A stretch of DNA of 44,259 nt from Bryobacterales bacterium. Its GTDB lineage: Bacteria > Acidobacteriota > Terriglobia > Bryobacterales > UBA6623. The stretch spans positions 1 through 44,259 of the forward strand of contig JAPPLB010000127.1 in assembly GCA_028819575.1 (NCBI GenBank), given 5' to 3'. Below are positions 18,432 through 44,259 of this stretch, in pieces. How positions within the stretch are numbered: position 1 is the stretch's first letter; each line of letters begins with the position of its first letter. Made by a program: the position numbers and the translations under genes. The notes beneath the pieces are model-generated. The model was given only the letters and a program-made list of their open reading frames with translations. It had not been told where the DNA came from and ran no database searches.

Positions 18432-19010
18432 GTGGAAGTTATGAGGACGCCGTGCTTGGGAACGGAAACCACATCCACGCCTGTCGTGGACGCCCCGGCT
18501 GGGGACAACAGAGCCGCCCGATCCGCGGCCAGGCCGGCCAACGGACGGCTGGTCTTCGCGCGGCGCGGCGCGGCGATGAGCGCCACGTCGGGGGCGCTGA
18601 CGGCGGTGCGTATCGCCCGCGAGCAGGCCGCCGATTACCGCGTCACCCTCGCCGACCGGCCCGAATATAGCTCGGTCCGGGCGTACTGGTACGACACGGC
18701 CGCGGGACGGCGGATGGAAGTGACGGCGGGTGATGGCGAGCCGGTCTACGCCCTGCGCGACGACCATGCCCGCGAGGCGGCCGCCCGCGCGGCCGCGCAG
18801 GCCCGCCTCGACATTCTCAAGCGCGGCGCGGCAACCCTCAGCCTTACCCTCGAGCCGGGCGTGCCCGCCGTCAGCGCCGAAAGCCCGCTCGCCCTGAGCG
18901 GCTTCCGCAACGGCGTCGACGGGCTCTGGATCGCCGTCCGCGTCAGCCACGACATCGACAACAGCGGATACTCCACCCGTGTCTTGGCCGAGACGCCGAC
19001 GGCTGGATGA
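18432..19010 (+). pseudogene. Phage late control gene D protein, C-terminal fragment
   Basis: From about residue 38 the frame matches the C-terminal part of gpD-family baseplate hub proteins of Mu/P2-like tails: VRAYWYDTAAGRRMEV, then an ALRDDHAREAAARAAAQA helix, GAATLSLTLEPG, and SPLALSGFRNGVDGLWIAVR ending in GYSTRVLAETP. Full gpD proteins are around 350 residues; only about 150 remain, preceded by unrelated sequence. No other tail genes adjoin it. It is a relic of a decayed Mu-like prophage together with the broken genes up to 21141. Confidence 0.75.
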
Positions 19011-19824: not shown

Positions 19825-20281
19825 TCAGCCGGGCGTTTTGAGGATCTCCCAGATGCGGCGCTCGCTCAAGCCGTATTCCCGAGCCAGCCCCGCCACCGAC
19901 CGACCGGCCTCGTAGCTCCTGATGATCTCGTCGTTGCGGCGAGTGCGCACCGGATCGTCCAGCTTGGCGATGTAGAGCCTCGGCGCCCAGCAGCAGCGAC
20001 AAGGGATGGCCGGCGCGGTAGCGTCTCGGCACCTTGAGATAGGCCCCTCCGTGACGCTCCACCAGCGTCAGTGCGCCTTGGCGCCCCGCGACTTCGGCAA
20101 TGCTTCCGAGCGACGGCGGCAGCTTCCGCAGCGGGCCGGACTCCGTTCTCATGCGCCGCCGCAACGCGGCACAGTAGTCGCGCTTGACACGGTCCAGCGC
20201 CGCTTGCGCCTCCTCGACCGTCCCGCGCAGCGCGTCGCGACAGTGGGCATACGCGGTCGCCAGGCGCTAGATCTCGTCCAT
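19825..20281 (-). pseudogene. Broken Mor-type transcription activator of a Mu-like prophage
   Basis: The middle (LPPSLGSIAEVAG, ALTLVERHGGAYLKVPRRY, GHPLSLLLGAEA) matches the N-terminal half of Mor/C activators. The DNA-binding end (RNDEIIRSYEAGRSVAGLAR, then EYGLSERRIWEILK) follows in a different frame, with about a dozen family residues missing at the junction near 19985. The upstream part begins ATG GAC GAG ATC and then an in-frame TAG (20267-20269) before LATAYAHCRDALRGTVEEAQ. So there are at least two independent lesions. In Mu-like phages Mor switches on middle transcription; this copy cannot. Confidence 0.75.
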
Positions 20282-34758: not shown

Positions 34759-34797
34759 GTTGATCGCGTTTTGAAAGTGACAACAGGAAGTGACAAC

Positions 34798-35934
34798 ATG
34801 GCGAAACAGAATCGTTTAACCGCTTCATTTGTGCGGTCCGTCCGGAAACCAGGACGACACAGCGACGGCCGCGGTAGCCGCGGTCTCGCGCTACTCGTGC
34901 AGGCCGACGCCGCAGGCCAAATCCGAAAATCCTGGATTCAGCGGATCAAGGTAGACGGCCGGGTGACGAATAAAGGGCTAGGCGGCTATCCGTCGACGAC
35001 CCTGACCCAAGCGCGCAGCAAGGCGATCAGGAACTGGCTACAGGTACAGGATGGTAAGTCACCGTTTACGAAACGAGTCCCGACGTTCGCGGTGTGCGCC
35101 GATCGCTGCATCCGTGAATTAGTGCCGACGTGGAAATCAGGTAGCCGCTCTGAGGACATCTGGAGGCGTTCGCTGGACGCCTATGTCATGCCTGTGATCG
35201 GTGACATACGGATAAACGAGATCACAGCGAAACGCCTACATGATTTGTTGACGCCGATCTGGACCGCGAAACGTGCAACAGGACTGAAGATCATGCAGCG
35301 TATCAGCACGATCATGCAATGGGCACAGGTTCAAGGCTACAGGAAAGACGACCCGACGACGGCACTACGTCCACCGCGAAACGGACAAGTAAAACACTTC
35401 GACGCGCTACCACACGGCGAGGTGAAGGCCGCGGTGCAAGCAATCAGACGTTGCAAGCAATGGGACGCCGCAAAGGCGGCGGTGGAGTTTGCGATATTCA
35501 CCGCGGCCCGCTCGGCCGAGGTATGCGGCGCGACGTGGGATGAGATCGACCTGGACGCAGGCACCTGGACGATTCCCGCCGCCAGAACGAAAGTGAAGCG
35601 CGATCATGTCGTGCCGCTCAACGATGGCGCGAAGTGGGCATTGACCGAGGTTATCGGCAGGCATCCGACCCTGGTATTTCCATCGGCGCAAGGCAAGGTC
35701 ATGAACGGCCTGATTCTGCGGCGTGTTTTACAAGCGGCAGGCGTAGAATCCACGGTCCACGGATTCCGATCATCGTTCAGAGACTGGTGCGGAGAAACAG
35801 GCCAACCGCGCGAAGTGGCCGAGGCGTCCCTGGCGCATGTCGTCGGATCCGCCGTCGAGCAGGCATACGCCAGATCGACCATGCTGGCCAGACGCCGTGA
35901 ATTGATGAAGGCGTGGTCCGATTACCTGTTGTAA
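34798..35934 (+). CDS. int: Phage tyrosine integrase (P4-type)
   Basis: 378 residues from ATG 34798 with AGGAAG upstream. The N-terminal arm-binding domain of the DUF4102 type (TASFVRSVRKPGRHSDGRGS, RGLALLVQADAAGQ) is followed by a SAM-like core-binding domain and the catalytic domain. Active residues are visible as Arg in FTAARSAEVCG, Lys in RTKVKRDHVVPL, HGFR, His in LAHVVG and the Tyr nucleophile in VEQAYARST. It catalyses site-specific integration and, with a directionality factor, excision. Codon use is less GC-biased than in host genes. Confidence 0.95.
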   Translation: MAKQNRLTASFVRSVRKPGRHSDGRGSRGLALLVQADAAGQIRKSWIQRIKVDGRVTNKGLGGYPSTTLTQARSKAIRNWLQVQDGKSPFTKRVPTFAVCADRCIRELVPTWKSGSRSEDIWRRSLDAYVMPVIGDIRINEITAKRLHDLLTPIWTAKRATGLKIMQRISTIMQWAQVQGYRKDDPTTALRPPRNGQVKHFDALPHGEVKAAVQAIRRCKQWDAAKAAVEFAIFTAARSAEVCGATWDEIDLDAGTWTIPAARTKVKRDHVVPLNDGAKWALTEVIGRHPTLVFPSAQGKVMNGLILRRVLQAAGVESTVHGFRSSFRDWCGETGQPREVAEASLAHVVGSAVEQAYARSTMLARRRELMKAWSDYLL

Positions 35935-36094: not shown

Positions 36095-36349
36095 TTACTT
36101 GCTGAAGATCGCCGTGATCTTCTCGACCAGGGTTTCCGCGTAATCCAGCTCCTTCGCACCGAACGCGCCGGGCTTCAGGCCAGCACGCCGTTTTTTCAAG
36201 GCCGCGGCCACGGCGTCGGCGCGTTTCTTGAAGTCTGCTGCGTCGTGGTTGTCGAGCAGCCAGATCACGAGCTGCCGAGGCGGGATCTTCTCGATGGGCT
36301 TGCGGACGACCTTCACGGTCTCGATTTCAAAGGATTTGCTGTTGGTCAT
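36095..36349 (-). CDS. Small phage protein, unknown function
   Basis: 84 residues. ATG 36349 has GGAG 6 bp upstream; ATG 36361 is in frame. The N-terminus is a short beta segment (SFEIETVKVVRKPIEKIPPR), followed by helices rich in Lys and Ala (DFKKRADAVAAALKKRRAGL) and LDYAETLVEKITAIFSK. Basic and soluble, it could be a DNA- or protein-binding accessory factor. It is the only leftward gene of the element seen here, so it may belong to the lysogenic or early side. I do not recognise the family. Confidence 0.7.
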   Translation of the reverse strand: MTNSKSFEIETVKVVRKPIEKIPPRQLVIWLLDNHDAADFKKRADAVAAALKKRRAGLKPGAFGAKELDYAETLVEKITAIFSK

Positions 36350-36445
36350 TGTGGTCTCCATTGGCGGGTCTGCCGCCGAATCATTGAATTTCCAGGAGGG
36401 TTGCTCATCCCGAAAAGGAAAGCAAGCGCATCGTTAAAAAAAGTT

Positions 36446-36486
36446 TGTGGCAATAATACGTCTTTCGGGCAGACCAGATATAAAAT
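36446..36486 (+). promoter_or_regulatory. Element-specific promoter A
   Basis: TGTGGCAA (36446-36453), then 25 bp ending in AGACCAGA, two bases, and TAAAAT (36481-36486). The same layout recurs at 37257 and 39106 with identical spacing. There is no TTGACA at the normal -35 position. Downstream sequence AATCGTGAAA resembles AATAGTGAAA after promoter B. It points to the rightward genes. Confidence 0.65.
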
Positions 36487-36830
36487 GTAATCGTGAAAGC
36501 GATATCAAGCCCAGAGCGCGCAAGATACCGCCCTGCTTGGAGTGCCGTGGATTTGAGCGGTTCACGGTATGGCATAGAGGAAAGATTTTCACAACACGGG
36601 CCGGCGTTAGGTAGGCGTGAGTAAACCGCCGATTACGCGCTAAGCCGTTCCAAGCACCATCTGACGGGTGACCTGCCCTAGATCAATCAGGCTCGCGCGA
36701 CGGTATCCCATACGGTCATAATCGTTAACGCATTTGGGACTAATTAGCCTGCTGTGGTAACGCTACCTGACAGCATGGCATAGACCCAGATGCGTTCAAA
36801 TAAACCCTCCAATCATATTTACTCCTTAAT
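36487..36830 (+). other. Leader region after promoter A, no firm gene
   Basis: A 43-codon frame starts at GTG 36493, on the predicted +1, and reads KAISSPERARYRPAWSAVDL and on to TAA; if used it would be leaderless. Beyond it I see no coding. Pairs such as ACGGTAT/ATACGGT (36700-36718) allow folding. Position and length would suit an untranslated leader RNA, but no known RNA family is recognised. Confidence 0.35.
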
Positions 36831-36833
36831 AGT

Positions 36834-36913
36834 GGTTGAAACTGGTTGATGCAGGTTGAAACTGGTTGATGCAGGTTGAAACTGGATACTGGTTGGGGAT
36901 AGTGGTTGAAACC
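36834..36913 (+). repeat. Iteron-like direct repeats
   Basis: Two exact 20-bp units GGTTGAAACTGGTTGATGCA (36834-36853 and 36854-36873), a third partial unit GGTTGAAACTGG (36874-36885) and a fourth GGTTGAAACC (36904-36913). The shorter sub-repeat ACTGGTT recurs inside. The arrangement resembles iterons of a replication origin or a regulator array. A minus-strand open frame through it merely translates the repeat and is not credible. Confidence 0.7.
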
Positions 36914-36930
36914 GTTAATAGAGAATCGAT

Positions 36931-36960
36931 GATCAATGACATCGATCATGATCGTTGATC
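36931..36960. promoter_or_regulatory. GATC cluster with palindrome next to the iterons
   Basis: Four GATC sites in 30 bp (36931, 36944, 36950, 36957) and the perfect palindrome CGATCATGATCG (36943-36954). It lies between the iterons and the next gene. It supports an origin-type or operator function of this locus. Confidence 0.45.
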
Positions 36961-36973
36961 GGAGTGTGAAAGA

Positions 36974-37141
36974 ATGAAATACAAGGACGAATCAGGAGTA
37001 CGCTTTGAAGCGATCATATGCAGGCATTGTGCTCGAACAGCGTATAAACCAAACTACAAACTGGATCGTGAGTGCAGCTCACAGCATGGACATGTCTGGC
37101 ATCCTTTGATGTGGACTCGGACATCTAAGCTGTTACGTTGA
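36974..37141 (+). CDS. Small zinc-binding phage protein
   Basis: 55 residues: MKYKDESGVRFEAIICRHCA, then RTAYKPNYKLDRECSSQHGH and VWHPLMWTRTSKLLR. Cys16, Cys19, Cys34 and clustered histidines (His38, His40, His43) can bind one zinc. GGAG stands 9 bp before the ATG. It follows directly on the iteron/GATC block and precedes a strong hairpin. Unknown family; a DNA-binding regulator is a guess only. Confidence 0.6.
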   Translation: MKYKDESGVRFEAIICRHCARTAYKPNYKLDRECSSQHGHVWHPLMWTRTSKLLR

Positions 37142-37200
37142 TGTAAAATATCTATGAGGTCTTCTGCCGACGGCGGAAGTATCGCAAAAACCAATCAAGA

Positions 37201-37230
37201 CAAGGGCCTCACTAACCAGTGAGGCCCTTG
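37201..37230. terminator. Strong hairpin after the small zinc protein gene
   Basis: CAAGGGCCTCACT (37201-37213), AACC, AGTGAGGCCCTTG (37218-37230): 13 paired bases without mismatch, 60 bp after the preceding stop. It lacks a T-run on the plus strand, so it is a terminator-like or RNA-stabilising structure. Confidence 0.6.
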
Positions 37231-37256
37231 CCTCTTCATGGTCGACAAAGAAAGTA

Positions 37257-37297
37257 TGTGGCAATACTCAGCCATATTGACAAAGCAGATGTACAAT
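37257..37297 (+). promoter_or_regulatory. Element-specific promoter B with overlapping inverted repeat
   Basis: TGTGGCAA (37257-37264), 25 bp ending in GCAGA, two bases, TACAAT (37292-37297). From inside the -10 box a 9-bp inverted repeat runs across the expected start: ACAATCAAT, 8 bp, ATTGATTGT (37293-37318). This could be an operator, or fold in the first bases of the RNA. It is the first promoter upstream of the packaging genes. Confidence 0.65.
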
Positions 37298-37302
37298 CAA
37301 TA

Positions 37303-37393
37303 GTGAAACATTGATTGTTTTTCTCCTACCAAACAGCCCGCAGACTTAACGTCGATCCTACCAATTCGACGGCAGAGTCTGCGGGCCTTTTTT
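37303..37393 (+). ncRNA. Predicted terminated leader or small RNA before terL
   Basis: Promoter B would start RNA near 37303. An intrinsic terminator with T6 ends at 37393, giving about 90 nt. No start codon with a Shine-Dalgarno lies within it. It precedes terL by 70 bp. Late operons of lambda-type phages use the same layout, a short terminated RNA that is extended by antitermination. No antiterminator is identified here. Confidence 0.5.
37336..37393 (+). terminator. Intrinsic terminator upstream of terL
   Basis: GCCCGCAGACT (37336-37346) pairs with AGTCTGCGGGC (37376-37386), followed by C and T6 (37388-37393). An inner stem CGTCGA / TCGACG (37350-37355, 37366-37371) extends the structure. 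The structure is strong and typical. Confidence 0.85.
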
Positions 37394-37465
37394 AACAAAA
37401 TATGGCTCCAAGACTTTGAAATCAGGCCAGCGAGAACGTCGCCTGTACCTGCTTCGTAAACGAGA

Positions 37466-38839
37466 ATGAAACTCCTGCCATTTCAGAGACGTTATATCGA
37501 CGCCCCAAATCAGATCAAGTGTCTCAGTCTGCCCAGGGGAAATGGCAAATCAACGCTCTGCGCCTACCATCTGGCTCACGTTCTTGAGACACAGCCGAAC
37601 ACCAGTAACTACGTGTTTGCCCATTCTTTGGGACAGGCTCGGGATACGATATTCAAGGAGTTCAAGCGGTTTATCAATCAGGACGATTACCGGATCTCCG
37701 ATAGCACAAACAACATCTGCAGGGCAATCCACAAGAAAACAAAGAGTGTTTTATACGTCCGGTCAGCTAATCCGAAATCAGCTATGGGTATGGTCGGCGC
37801 AAACTTAATCGTTTGCGACGAGCCAGGGGCCTGGGAGGTCAACGCAGGCGAGGCACTCTGGGACGCCATCGAGACCAGTCTCGGCAAACCTGGAGACAAA
37901 TCCAAGGTCTTTGTTGTTGGTACGAGAGCACCTGTAAATCCAGTCTGGTTTCAGACCTTGTTGGCAGACCCCAATAACTACGCGGATTTGATGGTGGGTT
38001 CTGCCGACAAATGGTCTGATCTGCGACACGTCTACTCCGTGAATCCGGTAATGCGCCTGTTTCCAGAATCACGGAAGAAGCTAACGCAGGAGAGAGACCA
38101 AGCGCTAAACGATCCCAGGTTGAAGGCGAGGTTCTTATCCTACAGGCTCAACCTGCCGAGCCAGGATGAATCATCGACCCTGCTCACCGTTTCCGATTGG
38201 AAACGGTGTCTGGCTCGGCCTGTACCTCCACGAGAAGGACGGCCTGTTGTTGGCGTTGATTTGGGTGCAGGTAGAGCGTGGTCGGCCGCGGTAGCCGTCT
38301 GGCGTAATCAACGCGTCGAGGCCGTTGCACTATGTCCGGGTCTACCGAGCGTCAGAGAACAGGAACGCCGGGACAAGGTATCGGCCGGGACATATCAGAG
38401 ATTGGTCGACGCAGGCAGTTTGATCGTTGCCCAGGGCCTGCACATTCCGCCGGTCAGCGGGTTGCTGTCCTGTATTGCCGAGTGGAATCCGCAGGTCATT
38501 GTCTGCGATCGGTTCCGGTTACAGGAACTCAAGGATGCACGTCCACCCTGCGACGTAATACCAAGGATCAGTCGGTGGTCAGAATCCAGTCAGGATATTC
38601 GAGCAACTCGAGCTATGTCAAAGGACGGGCAGCTATCAATCGATCCCGAATCCAGGGACTTGCTGGAGCATTCGTTGTCGGTTACGACCGTCGTGAACGA
38701 CGATGCCGGTAACGTGATGATCAAAAAGTCTAAAAACAATACTGCACGAGACGACCTCTCTTCCGCTCTGGTGTTGGCGTGCGGCGTTGTATCCAGGTTC
38801 AAAGAACCACGGCCTTTCAGATATGTCGTATGTCGATAG
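37466..38839 (+). CDS. terL: Phage terminase large subunit
   Basis: 457 residues. The ATPase part has the Walker A motif LPRGNGKST (Lys28) and Walker B LIVCDEPGAW (Asp118, Glu119). The nuclease part has the RNase H-like acids Asp265 (VGVDLGAG), Asp348 (VIVCDRFR) and Asp429/Asp430 (ARDDLSSAL). It packages DNA into proheads and cuts it. No small terminase is recognisable upstream; only the zinc protein and non-coding sequence lie there. The Shine-Dalgarno is weak. Its end overlaps the HNH gene by 17 bp. Confidence 0.92.
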   Translation: MKLLPFQRRYIDAPNQIKCLSLPRGNGKSTLCAYHLAHVLETQPNTSNYVFAHSLGQARDTIFKEFKRFINQDDYRISDSTNNICRAIHKKTKSVLYVRSANPKSAMGMVGANLIVCDEPGAWEVNAGEALWDAIETSLGKPGDKSKVFVVGTRAPVNPVWFQTLLADPNNYADLMVGSADKWSDLRHVYSVNPVMRLFPESRKKLTQERDQALNDPRLKARFLSYRLNLPSQDESSTLLTVSDWKRCLARPVPPREGRPVVGVDLGAGRAWSAAVAVWRNQRVEAVALCPGLPSVREQERRDKVSAGTYQRLVDAGSLIVAQGLHIPPVSGLLSCIAEWNPQVIVCDRFRLQELKDARPPCDVIPRISRWSESSQDIRATRAMSKDGQLSIDPESRDLLEHSLSVTTVVNDDAGNVMIKKSKNNTARDDLSSALVLACGVVSRFKEPRPFRYVVCR

Positions 38840-39101
38840 TCGACTGGAAGGTTACCGTTGGTCCAAGGTCCGTAAGGTGATCTTACGGCGTGATCGTTAT
38901 ACCTGCCAAAAGTGCGGCGCAGTTAATCGGCGTCTGCAAGTCCACCATATACAGGAGCGTCGTCACAGGCCGGATCTTAAGTACACTCTCTCGAACCTAT
39001 TAACCGTTTGCCGGACGTGTCATATAGAAATTCATTCCGCAGATGTACCGAGGGACAAACAAGAGTGGCGAGATTACGTAATAGAACAGCAGGCTTCGTG
39101 A
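38823..39101 (+). CDS. HNH endonuclease
   Basis: 92 residues. The fold is clear: YTCQKCG (first CxxC), LQVHHIQERRH with the catalytic His, SNLLTVCRTCHIEIHS with the Asn, second CxxC and final His. Its ATG lies inside the terL 3' end. In HK97-like phages an HNH protein beside the terminase stimulates cos cleavage during packaging, so it probably works with TerL here. Confidence 0.88.
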   Translation: MSYVDSRLEGYRWSKVRKVILRRDRYTCQKCGAVNRRLQVHHIQERRHRPDLKYTLSNLLTVCRTCHIEIHSADVPRDKQEWRDYVIEQQAS

Positions 39102-39105
39102 GATA

Positions 39106-39146
39106 TGTGGCAAATATCACTCTCAAATCAAGACCAGAGGTATAAT
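39106..39146 (+). promoter_or_regulatory. Element-specific promoter C
   Basis: TGTGGCAA (39106-39113), 25 bp ending in AAGACCAGA, GG, TATAAT (39141-39146). It has the same 27-bp distance as promoters A and B and, like them, no -35 match. It lies immediately after the HNH stop and 72 bp before the tail tube gene, so it gives the structural genes a separate transcript. Confidence 0.65.
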
Positions 39147-39179: not shown

Positions 39180-39216
39180 GCACAGTCCTTAATTCAAAGA
39201 GAAAGAAGGATTGTGC
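39180..39216 (+). promoter_or_regulatory. RBS-masking hairpin of the tail tube gene
   Basis: GCACAGTCCTT (39180-39190) can pair with AAGGATTGTGC (39206-39216), 11 bases with one G-U pair. The 3' arm contains the Shine-Dalgarno AAGGA of the gene starting at 39218. The loop is 15 nt. The structure would close the ribosome site unless opened, which implies translational control. Confidence 0.55.
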
Positions 39217-39217
39217 T

Positions 39218-39823
39218 ATGTCAGCACCTATCGAGATTGTTTCAGGCCCTTTGTCCGTTTGGATTTCCCCCCACGGCGAGGCCTTCCCCACCATTCAGAC
39301 CACACCAGCAGGTAATTGGGTCAAGATCGGCGCTACTGGAGCAGGAAGTATTTCCGAAGACGGTCTTACGATCAGTCACCCTCAGGAGTTCTTTGAAGTA
39401 AGAACGGCTGGATCGACCGCGGTTCAGAAGGTATTTCGTACCTCCGAGAGTATGATCGTTAGTTTTTCGTTGTTTGATATCTCCGCTCCAGAATACAGCA
39501 GGATGTTGAATAACAACACGGTCGGCAGCGTTACCGCAGCTGCAGGCGTTGCCGGTGAAAAGAGCGTCGACATTTACCGCGGTATGAACGTAAACGTCAA
39601 CGGCCTGCTTGTTCGAGGCAGCCTAAGCCCCGGTCAAGATGGTGCCCCTGTCCAGTATGAGATCCCCAAGGTTTATCAGGCGTCCAGTCCCGAAGTGGTC
39701 TATAACAAAGGCGTAGCCGCCGGCCTCGCTTTTGAGTTTACGGCCATCTTTGATGCCACTCAGTCGGCGGGCCAGGAACTCGGACGTTATGTCTATCAAA
39801 CCGCAGATCCGGTGAAGGAGTAA
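39218..39823 (+). CDS. Major tail tube protein, predicted
   Basis: 201 residues. The pattern fits siphovirus tail tube proteins: GNWVKIGATGAGSISEDGLT, a VQKVFRTSESMIVSFSLFDI strand pair, a variable loop, VQYEIPKVYQAS and AGLAFEFTAIFDATQ near the end. It polymerises into the tail tube. This start is supported by AAGGA 8 bp upstream. Its place before the capsid gene is unusual. Not a certain assignment: no strict motif exists for the family. Confidence 0.7.
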   Translation: MSAPIEIVSGPLSVWISPHGEAFPTIQTTPAGNWVKIGATGAGSISEDGLTISHPQEFFEVRTAGSTAVQKVFRTSESMIVSFSLFDISAPEYSRMLNNNTVGSVTAAAGVAGEKSVDIYRGMNVNVNGLLVRGSLSPGQDGAPVQYEIPKVYQASSPEVVYNKGVAAGLAFEFTAIFDATQSAGQELGRYVYQTADPVKE

Positions 39824-39826
39824 AGA

Positions 39827-41047
39827 ATGTCAGAACGAACACGTCTTGAAGTACGACAAAGAGAAATCCGCGCCAAGCTTACTGAGCTTGGTAAGGCCGA
39901 TAGTCCGAGTGACGAGCAGCGATCAGAGATGGACAAGCTTACTACTGAAGCAGTCGATATTGATCGCAAGCTAAACATCTTGGACGTCACTAAAGAGGAG
40001 GAGCGCTCGGTCGAGGTCAATGATGCGGAGACTAACGAGATCCGTGAGTTGCGAAAGAAGAGCCAAATTACCTCCTACATCGCCGCGTCTCTTGGAGGCC
40101 GAAGCGTTACAGGACCGGAGGCGGAGTTCAACGCCGCTGTAGGTATTGACGCCTCGGAGTTTCCAGTCGAGTTGCTGGTCCCGGATGAAATGAGATCTGT
40201 TACCGACGCCGACGGACAGGTTACACAGCAGCCCTGGATTCAGCGTTTGATGGCGGGCACAGCGTCAGGTGTGCTTGGCGTAACGTCCCGCAGTGTTGGA
40301 GTGGGTGTCCAGTCGGTGCCTCAAGTAGCAACCGGCCCTGACACCTTCACGCAGGTTGCCAAGGGTGCATCCGCTACCGAATCCACGTGGACGGTCAGTA
40401 CGATTCAATCCGAGCCCAAACGTGCGAGCGTTAATTTCAAATTCAGCATGGAAGATATCGCTCGGCTTCCCAGTTTGGAAGAGCAGCTCACCAGCGACAT
40501 GCGCCGTGCAGTAGCCGAGAAGATGGATCGAATGCTGTTCCTTGGTGACGATTCTCCAACAGGAACTGCCGCAGATATTGTTGGGTTTCAGACCGCAACG
40601 ATTACCGAGAAAACGATCAAACAGGCGGACAAGACCAAGGGTGAAAAGTGGCTGGCTCTGCTTGCCGAGTTGCTCGATGGCCTTCATGCCGAATCGATGA
40701 ACGATGTCCGTTTGGTGGTCTCGACGAGCACCAATCAGGCGTTTCTCTCCACGGTGATGGCTCCGCAGGTGAGTACCCAAACCGTGTCAAGTTTTCTCAG
40801 GGAGAACAACCTGTCCTGGACTGCTCGGAACTCGCTTGCGGCTAACACGTCTGCCGATAGCTTTGCCGGATATGTCGGTCTGCAGAAGGGTATTGCCGGA
40901 GCAGCCGTTCACAACATCTGGAACGCTGGATCGTTGATCAAGGACGTATACAACACGGCCGGCGAGACTACGCTCGTGCTCAACGTACTCCACGACTTTG
41001 TCATTCCGCGAGCTACCTCCTTCCGCAGGTTGAAATACGTCGCGTAA
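39827..41047 (+). CDS. HK97-fold major capsid protein
   Basis: 406 residues. The first 80 or so form a charged helical delta domain (REIRAKLTELGKADSPSDEQ) that acts as scaffold and is normally removed. The HK97 fold follows: FPVELLVPDEMRSV, FTQVAKGASATESTWTVSTI, KMDRMLFLGDDSPTG, VVSTSTNQAFLSTV and a C-terminal NVLHDFVIPRATSFRRLKYV strand. GGAG precedes the ATG within the end of the tail tube gene. The prohead protease two genes downstream should cut it. Confidence 0.87.
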   Translation: MSERTRLEVRQREIRAKLTELGKADSPSDEQRSEMDKLTTEAVDIDRKLNILDVTKEEERSVEVNDAETNEIRELRKKSQITSYIAASLGGRSVTGPEAEFNAAVGIDASEFPVELLVPDEMRSVTDADGQVTQQPWIQRLMAGTASGVLGVTSRSVGVGVQSVPQVATGPDTFTQVAKGASATESTWTVSTIQSEPKRASVNFKFSMEDIARLPSLEEQLTSDMRRAVAEKMDRMLFLGDDSPTGTAADIVGFQTATITEKTIKQADKTKGEKWLALLAELLDGLHAESMNDVRLVVSTSTNQAFLSTVMAPQVSTQTVSSFLRENNLSWTARNSLAANTSADSFAGYVGLQKGIAGAAVHNIWNAGSLIKDVYNTAGETTLVLNVLHDFVIPRATSFRRLKYVA

Positions 41048-41508
41048 TGTCGAACCTTTTGATCAGCGGCCCTGCTGGTGGAGGCAAGTCTCAACGTCTC
41101 AAGGAGTTGTTGGACGAGTCCGAAGAACCCACAGCAACGGCCGACTTTCAAAGTCTGTATGCCGCCTTACTTCAGCAGCAGCGTGATCCCTCAGGGAAAT
41201 ATCCTTTGAGGGATCCCGCCTTGCTGCCGCTCGTGGAGTATACGCGCAGATCAGTGATTACAGGCGCTCGCAAGCGAGGTATCAGGATTCTGGCAACCAA
41301 CAGCGACGGCGATCCAGAACGCCGCGGATCGTTGTTAGACGAGCTAGGCCCTGACAGTGAAGAACTGGTTATCGATCCCGGTCAAACAATCGCGGAGGAC
41401 AGGCTACGTAGCAAGGACGGTAGTTTGTCTCCCGAATGCAGAAACGCCCTGCAGCGATGGTACGCCAAGAAATATCGGGATAACCCGCGGCGTCGATACA
41501 GGAGATAA
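41047..41508 (+). CDS. Small P-loop protein in the head operon
   Basis: 153 residues with a classic Walker A loop at the N-terminus (LLISGPAGGGKSQRLKELLD), a helix carrying VEYTRRSVITGARKRGIRIL and a very basic C-terminus. The ATG overlaps the capsid stop (TAATG), so it is strongly co-expressed with the capsid. No Walker B acid is obvious. I do not recognise a known head protein of this kind; a nucleotide-binding accessory or kinase-like role is only an inference. Confidence 0.75.
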   Translation: MSNLLISGPAGGGKSQRLKELLDESEEPTATADFQSLYAALLQQQRDPSGKYPLRDPALLPLVEYTRRSVITGARKRGIRILATNSDGDPERRGSLLDELGPDSEELVIDPGQTIAEDRLRSKDGSLSPECRNALQRWYAKKYRDNPRRRYRR

Positions 41509-41510
41509 CG

Positions 41511-41996
41511 ATGGACGAAATCAGATGCAGCGTGAATTACCTGCCGGACGAAACACGGCAAGGACCAGGACGTCTTGTTGGCCGTCTTTTGTCATACGGC
41601 GAACAGATCGTCCACGGCCAGGGACGCGAGACATTTGAATCTCGTTCTTTGACGTTCGGTGACGACGGCATCGTCTTTTATGACAGCCACGATGTTACAC
41701 CTCGACGGCCTGTAGCCATTGTGCATCCTGAGAATCGTGATACCGAGGCAGTCGTTGACTTTGTCTTGCCTGATACTGGCGCAGGGAGACGTGTAGCGAA
41801 ACGTTTTCGAGAAGGATCGTACAAAGGCCTGTCTATCGAGTTTCGAAGCGTTAGGGAGAAATACGTCGCCGGTGTGCGCCGTATTTCCGAAGCCCTGGTT
41901 AATGGGTTCGCCGCCGTTGAAAGCCCTGCCTACCCTTCGGCACAGGTTGAGGTCCGATCAAAGCGTAAGCAGAGAAATCCTTACTCATGGCGATAA
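41511..41996 (+). CDS. Prohead protease (HK97/S78-like)
   Basis: 161 residues. The N-terminal GRLVGRLLSYGEQIVHG and FESRSLTF lead to VAIVHPEN and then the family's FREGSYKGLSIEFRSVREKY, where the Ser is the likely nucleophile. VRRISEALVNGFAAVESPAY follows, a typical end-of-domain block. It should mature the capsid delta domain. In most HK97-type clusters it lies upstream of the capsid gene; here it lies downstream. AGGAGA stands just before the ATG. Confidence 0.82.
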   Translation: MDEIRCSVNYLPDETRQGPGRLVGRLLSYGEQIVHGQGRETFESRSLTFGDDGIVFYDSHDVTPRRPVAIVHPENRDTEAVVDFVLPDTGAGRRVAKRFREGSYKGLSIEFRSVREKYVAGVRRISEALVNGFAAVESPAYPSAQVEVRSKRKQRNPYSWR

Positions 41997-42274
41997 CCAA
42001 CGATCAACTAGTAAACGCCCTCCGACTTGGTGACAGTGACGAAGAACTAAACCTCGCTATGCGCCTAAAAGGTGTTGGAGAAGCCCTGGTCGAGAAGCGT
42101 TGTCCTGCAGCCCCGGACGCCATTAAGGCCGAGGCGGTTATACGCATCGCAGGCTGGCTCTATGACAAGCCGAATTACTCAATCCACAAATTCTCCAGCA
42201 TACTCAAAAACTCTGGCGCAGGAGAATTGCTCCTTCCTTGGGTGGTTGTTTCCGCCACATCAACAGGTGACTAA
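41987..42274 (+). CDS. Head-tail connector protein (gp6/gp15-like), predicted
   Basis: 95 residues, largely helical (LAMRLKGVGEALVEKRCPAA, DAIKAEAVIRIAGWLYDKPN) with an exposed hydrophobic end. The size, helical pattern and location are those of ring connectors that dock to the portal. Overlaps the protease stop by 10 bp. Confidence 0.6.
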   Translation: MAITNDQLVNALRLGDSDEELNLAMRLKGVGEALVEKRCPAAPDAIKAEAVIRIAGWLYDKPNYSIHKFSSILKNSGAGELLLPWVVVSATSTGD

Positions 42275-42562
42275 ATGAGAAACGACGGAATACAACTTGA
42301 TCGCCGTATTGCTCTCGTCGCGACAAAATACACAGGCGACGGTTCTTCACTGCCCCTAAAAAACGTAACTACCTGGGTATGGGCACGACGAGAAGAGTTA
42401 GGTTCGGACCATCGGGATCGCGCCATGTATACGATCCGATACAGACCCGGTGTTACTACAGCGTGGCACGTCGAGGCAGGCGGCAAATGCTACGACATTC
42501 AGGAGATCGAGTTTATCGGCCGTAACAGGTATCTCAAACTCACAGTTAAGGAGATTGGTTAG
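42275..42562 (+). CDS. Head-tail stopper/adaptor protein, predicted
   Basis: 95 residues, all-beta: VTTWVWARREELGSDHRDRA, MYTIRYRPGV and KCYDIQEIEFIGRNRYLKLT. This WARxxE...FxIRY-like pattern fits the phage head-tail joining (SPP1 gp16-like) family that seals the portal. The start directly follows the previous TAA. Confidence 0.7.
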   Translation: MRNDGIQLDRRIALVATKYTGDGSSLPLKNVTTWVWARREELGSDHRDRAMYTIRYRPGVTTAWHVEAGGKCYDIQEIEFIGRNRYLKLTVKEIG

Positions 42563-43573
42563 ATGTTCAAATGGTTTGGTAAACAGGAAACCCGATCGAC
42601 ATACACCGACCATGTAGTCAGTGCTCTACTGGCCGCTGCCACCGGATCTGCTACAGACGTTGGTACGACCGCGGCGGTGCAGGTTGTCGCAGGTGCTGTA
42701 GGACGCGCTTTCGCTCTGGCATCGACCAGCGAGAAACTACTTACGCCGGGCGTGTTGACAACCATGGGAACAGACTTGGTCCGTTATGGATCGACGACAT
42801 GGCTCATTGATCCTGAAGGACTATTCCCTGTTGCAGGCGCATCGTTGAAGGCAGGAAACTACAACCCCAAATCATGGAGATACGACGTCGACCTCAACGG
42901 TCCGCACTCCACGACAACCAAGAAAAACGTACCGTATGAGGATTTGATCTCCGTAAGGTTGAATACGGATTCGATGGCACCCTGGCAGGGTGTGTCGTAT
43001 ACGACCAAGGCAAAGACCTCCAGCGCATTAACCGCCAATCTTTTGAAGTCATTGAGCGATGAGGCGTCAGGCCCTGTAGGTAGTTTCTTTACCGTACCCG
43101 GTGGAGATCTCAAAGCCTTGACAGCCGATATTAAAACAGCAAAAGGCGCAGCCTTGGCGGTACAAGGCGGCGAGACAGGATTTGAGACAGACAATCGTAT
43201 GAGTCCCCAATCGGACTTCGTACAAAAGCGGTTCGGTGTATCTACGCCTCAGGGAACAGTCGAACTGCTAAAGACGGCATACGAGCAGACGCTCAATTCT
43301 CTAGGAGTTTCAGGGTCTCTATTCTCCAGCACAAACAACGCCGGGGCAATCGCAGCCTACAGGCAGTTTGCCTTTGGACTGGTACTGCCGCTTGGCCGTC
43401 TTGTTGAGGCCGAATGCTCCGAGAAATTGGAAACGAAAATTACCCTGGACTTTGCCTCCATACGCGCCGTCGATGTGGCCGCTCGTGCTACAGGATTCAA
43501 CAAACTGGTCCAGGGTGGTATGGATCTGGAAAAGGCCCTCGCCATATCAGGATTGCTTCAAGATGAAAAATAA
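42563..43573 (+). CDS. Portal protein, short form
   Basis: 336 residues. Signs of an HK97-type portal: the N-terminal AAVQVVAGAVGRAFALAST helix, a DLVRYGSTTWLID strand, VPYEDLISVRL, a GVSTPQGTVELLKTAYEQTL clip/stem region and the C-terminal AVDVAARATGFNKLVQGGMD helix that leads into the crown. It is shorter than the usual 380-420. Portals usually come right after the terminase; here it is the last of the head block. The assignment rests on the C-terminal pattern and context. Confidence 0.7.
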   Translation: MFKWFGKQETRSTYTDHVVSALLAAATGSATDVGTTAAVQVVAGAVGRAFALASTSEKLLTPGVLTTMGTDLVRYGSTTWLIDPEGLFPVAGASLKAGNYNPKSWRYDVDLNGPHSTTTKKNVPYEDLISVRLNTDSMAPWQGVSYTTKAKTSSALTANLLKSLSDEASGPVGSFFTVPGGDLKALTADIKTAKGAALAVQGGETGFETDNRMSPQSDFVQKRFGVSTPQGTVELLKTAYEQTLNSLGVSGSLFSSTNNAGAIAAYRQFAFGLVLPLGRLVEAECSEKLETKITLDFASIRAVDVAARATGFNKLVQGGMDLEKALAISGLLQDEK

Positions 43574-43925
43574 CACAGACGTAGACATTAACTTCGACGC
43601 CGAGCAGTTGTTTCAGGACATGATCAAGACCGCCAAGGACGCCGTCGACGAGACGATGGAAGAGGCGGTGGATCACGCTAAAAAGAACCACCCTAGATGG
43701 CGGCGTCAAACCGGACGTACCGATCGAAATACCCAGGTAATCGAGAAGGCGAAACCTACAGGTTTCAAGGTTGAAGGTACTTGGGGCGTCGTAAAAACTC
43801 CCTATGCAGGCGTCCTTAGAAAACGCGGCGACTGGCTCGCCGCGGCACAGAACGAGAAGGCTCCCGGTCTCTCCGACAAACTCGAGCGTAAATGGCACCA
43901 GCGCAAACGAACCCAATCCAAGTAG
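43563..43925 (+). CDS. HK97 gp10-like head-tail/tail-terminator protein, predicted
   Basis: 120 residues from ATG 43563, overlapping the portal stop by 11 bp. An acidic helix (FDAEQLFQDMIKTAKDAVDE) is followed by a basic strand-rich part (RWRRQTGRTDRNTQVIEKAK, WGVVKTPYAGVLRKRG) and a C-terminal Lys-rich tail. The pattern GRT...VIE..K..G......YA..LE/LR is typical of gp10/minor tail proteins. Family assignment is moderate. Confidence 0.6.
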   Translation: MKNNTDVDINFDAEQLFQDMIKTAKDAVDETMEEAVDHAKKNHPRWRRQTGRTDRNTQVIEKAKPTGFKVEGTWGVVKTPYAGVLRKRGDWLAAAQNEKAPGLSDKLERKWHQRKRTQSK

Positions 43926-44259
43926 CCCAAAAATACGAACGTCCTTTACTCCGTAACCCTGCCTCGATTCGCGTCCCGGCGCATATCGAGGGCACCCCTA
44001 ACAGCAGGTGCATGGACTGCGGATCGCCTGACATTGCACCTGGCAAAGTAGCGCATTGCAGCAAGTGTCTTGAATACTGGCTCGACCTGTTTCATTACAA
44101 GACGTGCATCGAGTGCGGCGTACGGTTCGCCATAGAGGAACGACCAACCGCCCTGATCTGTTCGCCGCGGTGCAGGCGAGTACGTCTATCGAGATTGGTA
44201 ACGGAACGCCGGCGCGCCTTGCGCAAGCCGATACCCGAGCGGCCCTGCGCCGTATGCGG
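43892..44259 (+). CDS. Multi-zinc-knuckle phage protein, 3' end outside window
   Basis: At least 122 residues, still open at the last base. It carries five Cys pairs: CMDCG, CSKC, CIECG, CSPRC and CAVC, so two or more zinc sites, with an arginine-rich region between the last two (RVRLSRLVTERRRALRKPIP). The ATG overlaps the gp10-like gene by 34 bp. Zinc-knuckle proteins in phage head blocks are often DNA-binding or HNH-like. The family is not recognised and the C-terminus is unseen. Confidence 0.65.
   Translation, partial: MAPAQTNPIQVAQKYERPLLRNPASIRVPAHIEGTPNSRCMDCGSPDIAPGKVAHCSKCLEYWLDLFHYKTCIECGVRFAIEERPTALICSPRCRRVRLSRLVTERRRALRKPIPERPCAVC

Follow-up and report, generated by a model that had tools for sequence, protein, structure and literature searches.

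Three places in an integrated element, all within 2.7 kb, carry the motif TGTGGCAA followed by a -10-like hexamer at one fixed distance, and these are the only three copies, all on the forward strand, in the window (the whole 44,259-nt stretch of DNA analysed here). A preliminary description took them for promoters of a new architecture, each driving a separate block of genes. Are they a co-regulated set, what would read them, and is their layout new?

The element and its relatives

The contig runs to 51,372 bases, with host genes resuming at ~45,480, and the element occupies ~10.6 kb between candidate copies of a 12-bp repeat at 34788 and 45421. Its genes are listed below.

34798..35934, forward: tyrosine integrase at the left end of the element (open reading frame readable from 34750)
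36095..36361, reverse: 88-aa protein of no family, modelled with three helices
36974..37141, forward: 55-aa ORF with the pattern CxxC...C....H and a Shine-Dalgarno sequence, 481 nt after the predicted start of site A
37466..38839, forward: terminase large subunit (terL), after site B and a terminator
38787..39101, forward: HNH endonuclease
39218..39823, forward: 201-aa protein, the first gene after site C, with a weak major-tail-protein match (E 0.005)
39827..43573, forward: major capsid protein, 153-aa protein, prohead protease, 95-aa protein, head-completion protein and portal

The portal is followed at the right end by a connector-like protein and two zinc-ribbon proteins. The latter two extend from 43892-44259 of the window on to position 45380 of contig C33 (L010 10893-12381); one of them consists of tandem CxxC repeats and is broken by a stretch of N in the assembly. 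The relatives L013 and L014 likewise encode small zinc proteins after the portal gene. Replication, lysis and clear tail genes were not recognised in the element, the tail match of the 201-aa protein being only weak.

The element resembles capsid-forming satellites (PMC13230959, PMC10803314). Like cf-PICIs, it has an integrase and its own capsid, protease, portal, connectors, HNH and terminase in ~10 kb, and AlpA and an AAA protein are present in some of its relatives. It differs from cf-PICIs in gene order, with TerL first, and in the weak tail-protein match of the first gene after site C. AlpA, Stl and primase were not recognised in this copy (AlpA was found in relatives L014, L041 and L017), and the hosts here are not among the groups that PMC10803314 names. 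A second element of the same genome encodes a TerL relative, and so do another genome of the family, one genome of the class, MAGs labelled Chloroflexi, Rhodospirillaceae and Gammaproteobacteria, and viral contigs, with identities of 44-49%. Several of these relatives share the order integrase-AlpA-(AAA protein)-TerL-HNH-capsid-protease-portal. The sister element in the same genome (L026, G000 contig C175, 5303-15415) measures 10.07 kb between 41-bp repeats that resemble part of a tRNA gene. The IMG/VR contig L008 coincides with a stretch of L014, the integrated element of a Rhodospirillaceae MAG, and we therefore regard L008 as an integrated element catalogued as a virus.

Three sites of one layout

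The sites and the sequence features around them are as follows.

36442-36457: asymmetric 16-mer of site A, AGTTT-GTGGCA-ATAAT (-51 to -36 if +1 = 36493)
36446..36486, forward: promoter-like site A, TGTGGCAA-N27-TAAAAT
37253-37268: perfect 5-6-5 inverted repeat of site B, AGTAT-GTGGCA-ATACT (-51 to -36 if +1 = 37304)
37257..37297, forward: promoter-like site B, TGTGGCAA-N27-TACAAT
37294..37317, no strand assigned: palindrome CAATCAAT-N8-ATTGATTG, an inverted repeat overlapping the -10 and start of predicted promoter B
37336..37397, forward: intrinsic terminator between site B and terL, a 12-bp G/C-rich stem followed by T6
39102-39118: 5-7-5 inverted repeat of site C, GATAT-GTGGCAA-ATATC
39106..39146, forward: promoter-like site C, TGTGGCAA-N27-TATAAT

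We confirmed the reported arrangement at 36446, 37257 and 39106, where a spacer of exactly 27 bp separates TGTGGCAA from the hexamer and CAGA ends two bases before each -10, in A and C as AGACCAGA. Taking the seventh base after the -10 as +1 gives predicted starts at 36493 (A), 37304 (B) and 39153 (C) and puts TGTGGCAA at -47 to -40 in all three. The GTGAAA described at the expected start of A and B is also present, at +1 to +6 in A and -1 to +5 in B. The reported absence of TTGACA at -35 was borne out with one correction: every hexamer 15-19 bp upstream of each -10 matched TTGACA at three or fewer of six positions, but site B has a TTGACA at 37277-37282, 9 bp before TACAAT. The resulting alternative reading of B as TTGACA-N16-AATAGT is a minor caveat for a model in which an activator replaces the -35.

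Arms of at least 5 bp are perfectly symmetric in two of the three sites, B and C, with a post hoc probability of ~0.002. Site A is not symmetric, and what stays constant across the sites is the centre, with arms that vary. The bases at -57 to -52 are A-rich in A (AAAAAA) and B (AAAGAA). The palindrome over the -10 of B may be an operator. The surroundings of the three sites are otherwise different, as the preliminary description had it: beyond the letters they have in common, their flanks are about as alike as chance would make them, and recent duplication of one promoter was rejected on that basis.

Chance expectation and distribution

We counted, for every 8-mer at every spacing of 5-40, the copies preceding TANAAT, a test that allows free choice of word and spacing. 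The best count in the real DNA was 3. None of 2000 dinucleotide shuffles of the element reached it (maximum 2, attained 28 times), nor did any of 400 shuffles of the whole window (maximum 2). The genome-wide tests were pattern searches. Across the 5.37-Mb genome (200 contigs) TGTGGCAA-N27-TANAAT had three exact matches, all in the element, so the motif is not widespread in the host; the opposite outcome was what the preliminary description had named as a refutation. Allowing other spacers of 20-34 or a single mismatch added no match, and the genome-wide count at two mismatches, 16, equals background (15 for a reversed control). A host regulon was rejected, the genome having no further exact site and a two-mismatch level like that of the control. 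The site set is real and is private to the element within its genome.

Related elements do not have it. The suggested search for TGTGGCAA-N27-TANAAT in them found none with the pattern, in the sister element of the same genome or in those of distant bacteria; a set of 60 relatives gave one single exact match, and the 257 genomes of the order contained no cluster. The CAGA-containing pattern had four matches in public viral contigs, all single and without a cluster, and a regulon shared with those contigs was rejected. A literature search on TGTGGCAA together with promoter gave nothing relevant among the papers listed. If a short word had merely fallen into line with A/T-rich hexamers by chance, this would agree with the lack of conservation in relatives, but such a coincidence is highly improbable given three copies in 2.7 kb, none elsewhere in 5.37 Mb and none of 2000 shuffles reaching that count.

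In the terL region of the sister element, consensus-like sigma-70 promoters and several hairpins stand in place of the TGTGGCAA sites. A near-match in that element (L026 15141, N26, TACAAA) lies inside a reverse-strand ORF at a mismatch level equal to background and was not counted, nor were the look-alikes TGTGGTAA (L026, 7959) and TGTGTCAA (L014, 8805), which have no good -10 at 27 bp.

Comparison with known promoters

Pm, the activator-dependent middle promoter of phage Mu, has a recognisable -10 and no -35 and is transcribed by sigma-70 polymerase. A Mor dimer binds there to 16 bp, from -51 to -36, in which a G/C-rich hexamer is flanked by two 5-bp inverted repeats; the bases from -57 to -52 serve as an UP subsite (PMC4390567). 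Sites A, B and C likewise have a -10 without a -35 (best TTGACA match 3/6), and if +1 is placed 7 nt after the -10, their 16-bp element also falls at -51 to -36. The 5-bp inverted repeats around a G/C-rich hexamer are exact in B, which has the Pm/Mor geometry to the base, take a 5-7-5 form in C and are absent in A; the A-rich DNA just upstream in A and B lies where Pm has its UP subsite. The present sites differ from Pm in being three, with an invariant TGTGGCAA centre and variable arms, and in belonging to an element without a Mor/C gene. From this comparison the sites look to work like Pm, but the element lacks the activator that would place them in the Mor system, and the asymmetric site A gives no clear answer on that point. 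Pm already shows the layout, and neither the claimed novelty of the architecture nor the statement that no described phage promoter has this layout is supported; as a promoter layout, the sites repeat what Pm showed.

At class II activator-dependent sigma-70 promoters the activator site overlaps the -35 and the -10 is ordinary. The sites here have the same arrangement, a putative activator site overlapping the -35 and an ordinary -10, but the box is absent from the host genome outside the element and no activator was found in the element. A different precedent is given by the late promoters of P2 and P4, where one small phage or satellite protein, Ogr/Delta, coordinates packaging and capsid genes through a site TGT-N12-ACA at about -55. 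The element similarly encodes small zinc proteins; the TGT-N12-ACA site at about -55 is absent here, and no protein of the element matches Ogr/Delta.

The preliminary description proposed either one activator or an alternative sigma factor. A single trans-acting factor does best fit a fixed box without a -35, and the second option fares less well. A sigma factor reading TGTGGCAA and the -10 directly would account for a bipartite motif with fixed spacing, but 27 bp is far above known sigma spacers and more than a -35/-10 pair could span, the hexamer is an ordinary sigma-70 -10, the scanned element proteins contain no sigma domain, and the host genome has no other exact site. We consider this reading very unlikely because of the ordinary -10, the long spacer and the lack of a sigma factor in the element.

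Leaders, terminator and noncoding DNA

Each copy had been said to lie before a separate rightward block. This is fair for C, whose predicted leader to the capsid operon is 65 nt long; B precedes terL only across the strong terminator, and A reaches the 55-aa ORF only across its 481-nt leader. The segment 37304-37400, which includes the B terminator, folds at -36.3 kcal/mol (z -7.5), with no shuffle equally stable; for the A leader (36493-36973) the advantage over shuffles is modest (z -2.25).

In phage lambda, PR' and tR' form an antiterminated late operon, and the Q site lies between the -35 and -10. A serious rival to the activator model follows this pattern: the box would load a processive, lambda Q-like antitermination factor, and the modified polymerase would pass the terminator before terL. 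A very strong intrinsic terminator between B and terL is what an antiterminated late operon would be expected to have. Site C, however, has no such terminator, and the hairpin in its leader lacks a T run; the T tail of the hairpin after A (37198-37233) is poor on the forward strand; the box lies upstream of the -35, unlike the lambda Q site; and an antiterminator gene was not recognised. On balance we hold antitermination to be unlikely. The same terminator, directly after B, would also suit a scheme in which transcripts from B end there as a small RNA of ~90 nt and those from A form a long structured RNA. Regulatory RNAs would then be what the shared promoter serves, and terL would be read by another route. 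The z of the A leader is in keeping with this, but Rfam found no match to a known RNA family and C precedes the capsid operon with a short leader, making such a scheme very doubtful.

Roughly 1 kb of noncoding DNA follows the 88-aa gene. Downstream of site A it contains an array of direct repeats, TTGAAACTGG/TTGATGCAGG, phased at 10 bp (36826-36912), which are possible replication origin iterons. Repeat array and hairpins in one noncoding region, together with the operator-like palindrome over the -10 of B, favour a reading of the box as an operator or structural site, to which a repressor or a protein of replication or packaging would bind at a constant distance from otherwise weak -10s, silencing or organising the element there instead of activating it. 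An operator alone would need neither the exact 27-bp spacing nor the shared CAGA, and without an activator the sites would be left with no -35, so we regard this reading too as rather unlikely. The same noncoding DNA carries a motif, GGCATAGA/GGCCTAGA, with a nearby inverted repeat (36564-36578 and 36770-36784; L014 8832-8845), common to the noncoding DNA before terL in distant relatives and possibly a packaging or processing site. In the window at 39180-39216, the hairpin GCACAGTCCTT...AAGGATTGTGC pairs the Shine-Dalgarno sequence of the first gene after C (z -3.6), which suggests translational control of that gene.

Proposed activation and the trans-acting factor

The reading we prefer, with a probability of roughly 0.55, is that A, B and C are co-regulated promoters switched on together by an activator. 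Such a protein would bind around TGTGGCAA, at about -51 to -36, stand in for the missing -35 contact and bring ordinary sigma-70 RNA polymerase to the -10, in the way Mor acts at Pm. Joint switching would yield transcripts of the noncoding repeat-bearing segment from A, the packaging genes from B and the capsid operon from C. We infer promoter activity, protein binding at the box and activation from the same box, spacing and CAGA recurring in three unrelated contexts. Against the activator model stand the asymmetry of A, the invariance of the centre rather than the arms, and the presence of the motif in no related element. If the model is true, the sites form an element-private promoter set from which to learn how capsid-encoding satellites time late genes, and TGTGGCAA-N27-TANAAT is a sequence handle for identifying the activator or helper phage.

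The activator is probably encoded by the element itself or brought in by a helper phage, given that no further copy of the site exists in the host genome. Scanned against Pfam, the proteins of the element showed no match to Mor/C, Ogr/Delta or a sigma factor. An element-encoded activator had been anticipated beyond the right edge, but none is recognisable in the remainder, which holds the connector-like protein and the two zinc-ribbon proteins. The 88-aa protein was rejected as a regulator, its three-helix model having no significant PDB match. The 55-aa ORF, with no Pfam match, a weak PHROG match and a low-confidence structure model, and the zinc-ribbon proteins are only candidates. A more specific version of the activator model is tentative and in our judgement has well under even odds: the sites would be a private regulon in one member of a widespread group of tailless capsid-encoding satellites, where an undescribed activator, either its own small zinc protein or a helper-phage protein, reads an asymmetric TGTGGCAA core centred at about -43.5 and places the packaging and capsid genes under joint control with the repeat-bearing noncoding region.

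Matches to the Mor family (PF08765) in the genome all lie outside the element, on C45 in a Mu-like prophage, in a frameshifted remnant in the window (19834-19959), and weakly on C9. The prophage (L011, G000 contig C45, 7344-19900) has MuA/MuB-like genes and a short Mor-like protein. In the window, a piece of a baseplate-hub (GPD) gene on the forward strand (18432-19010) and the frameshifted Mor-family gene on the reverse strand (19834-20150) are fragments of a decayed Mu-like prophage.
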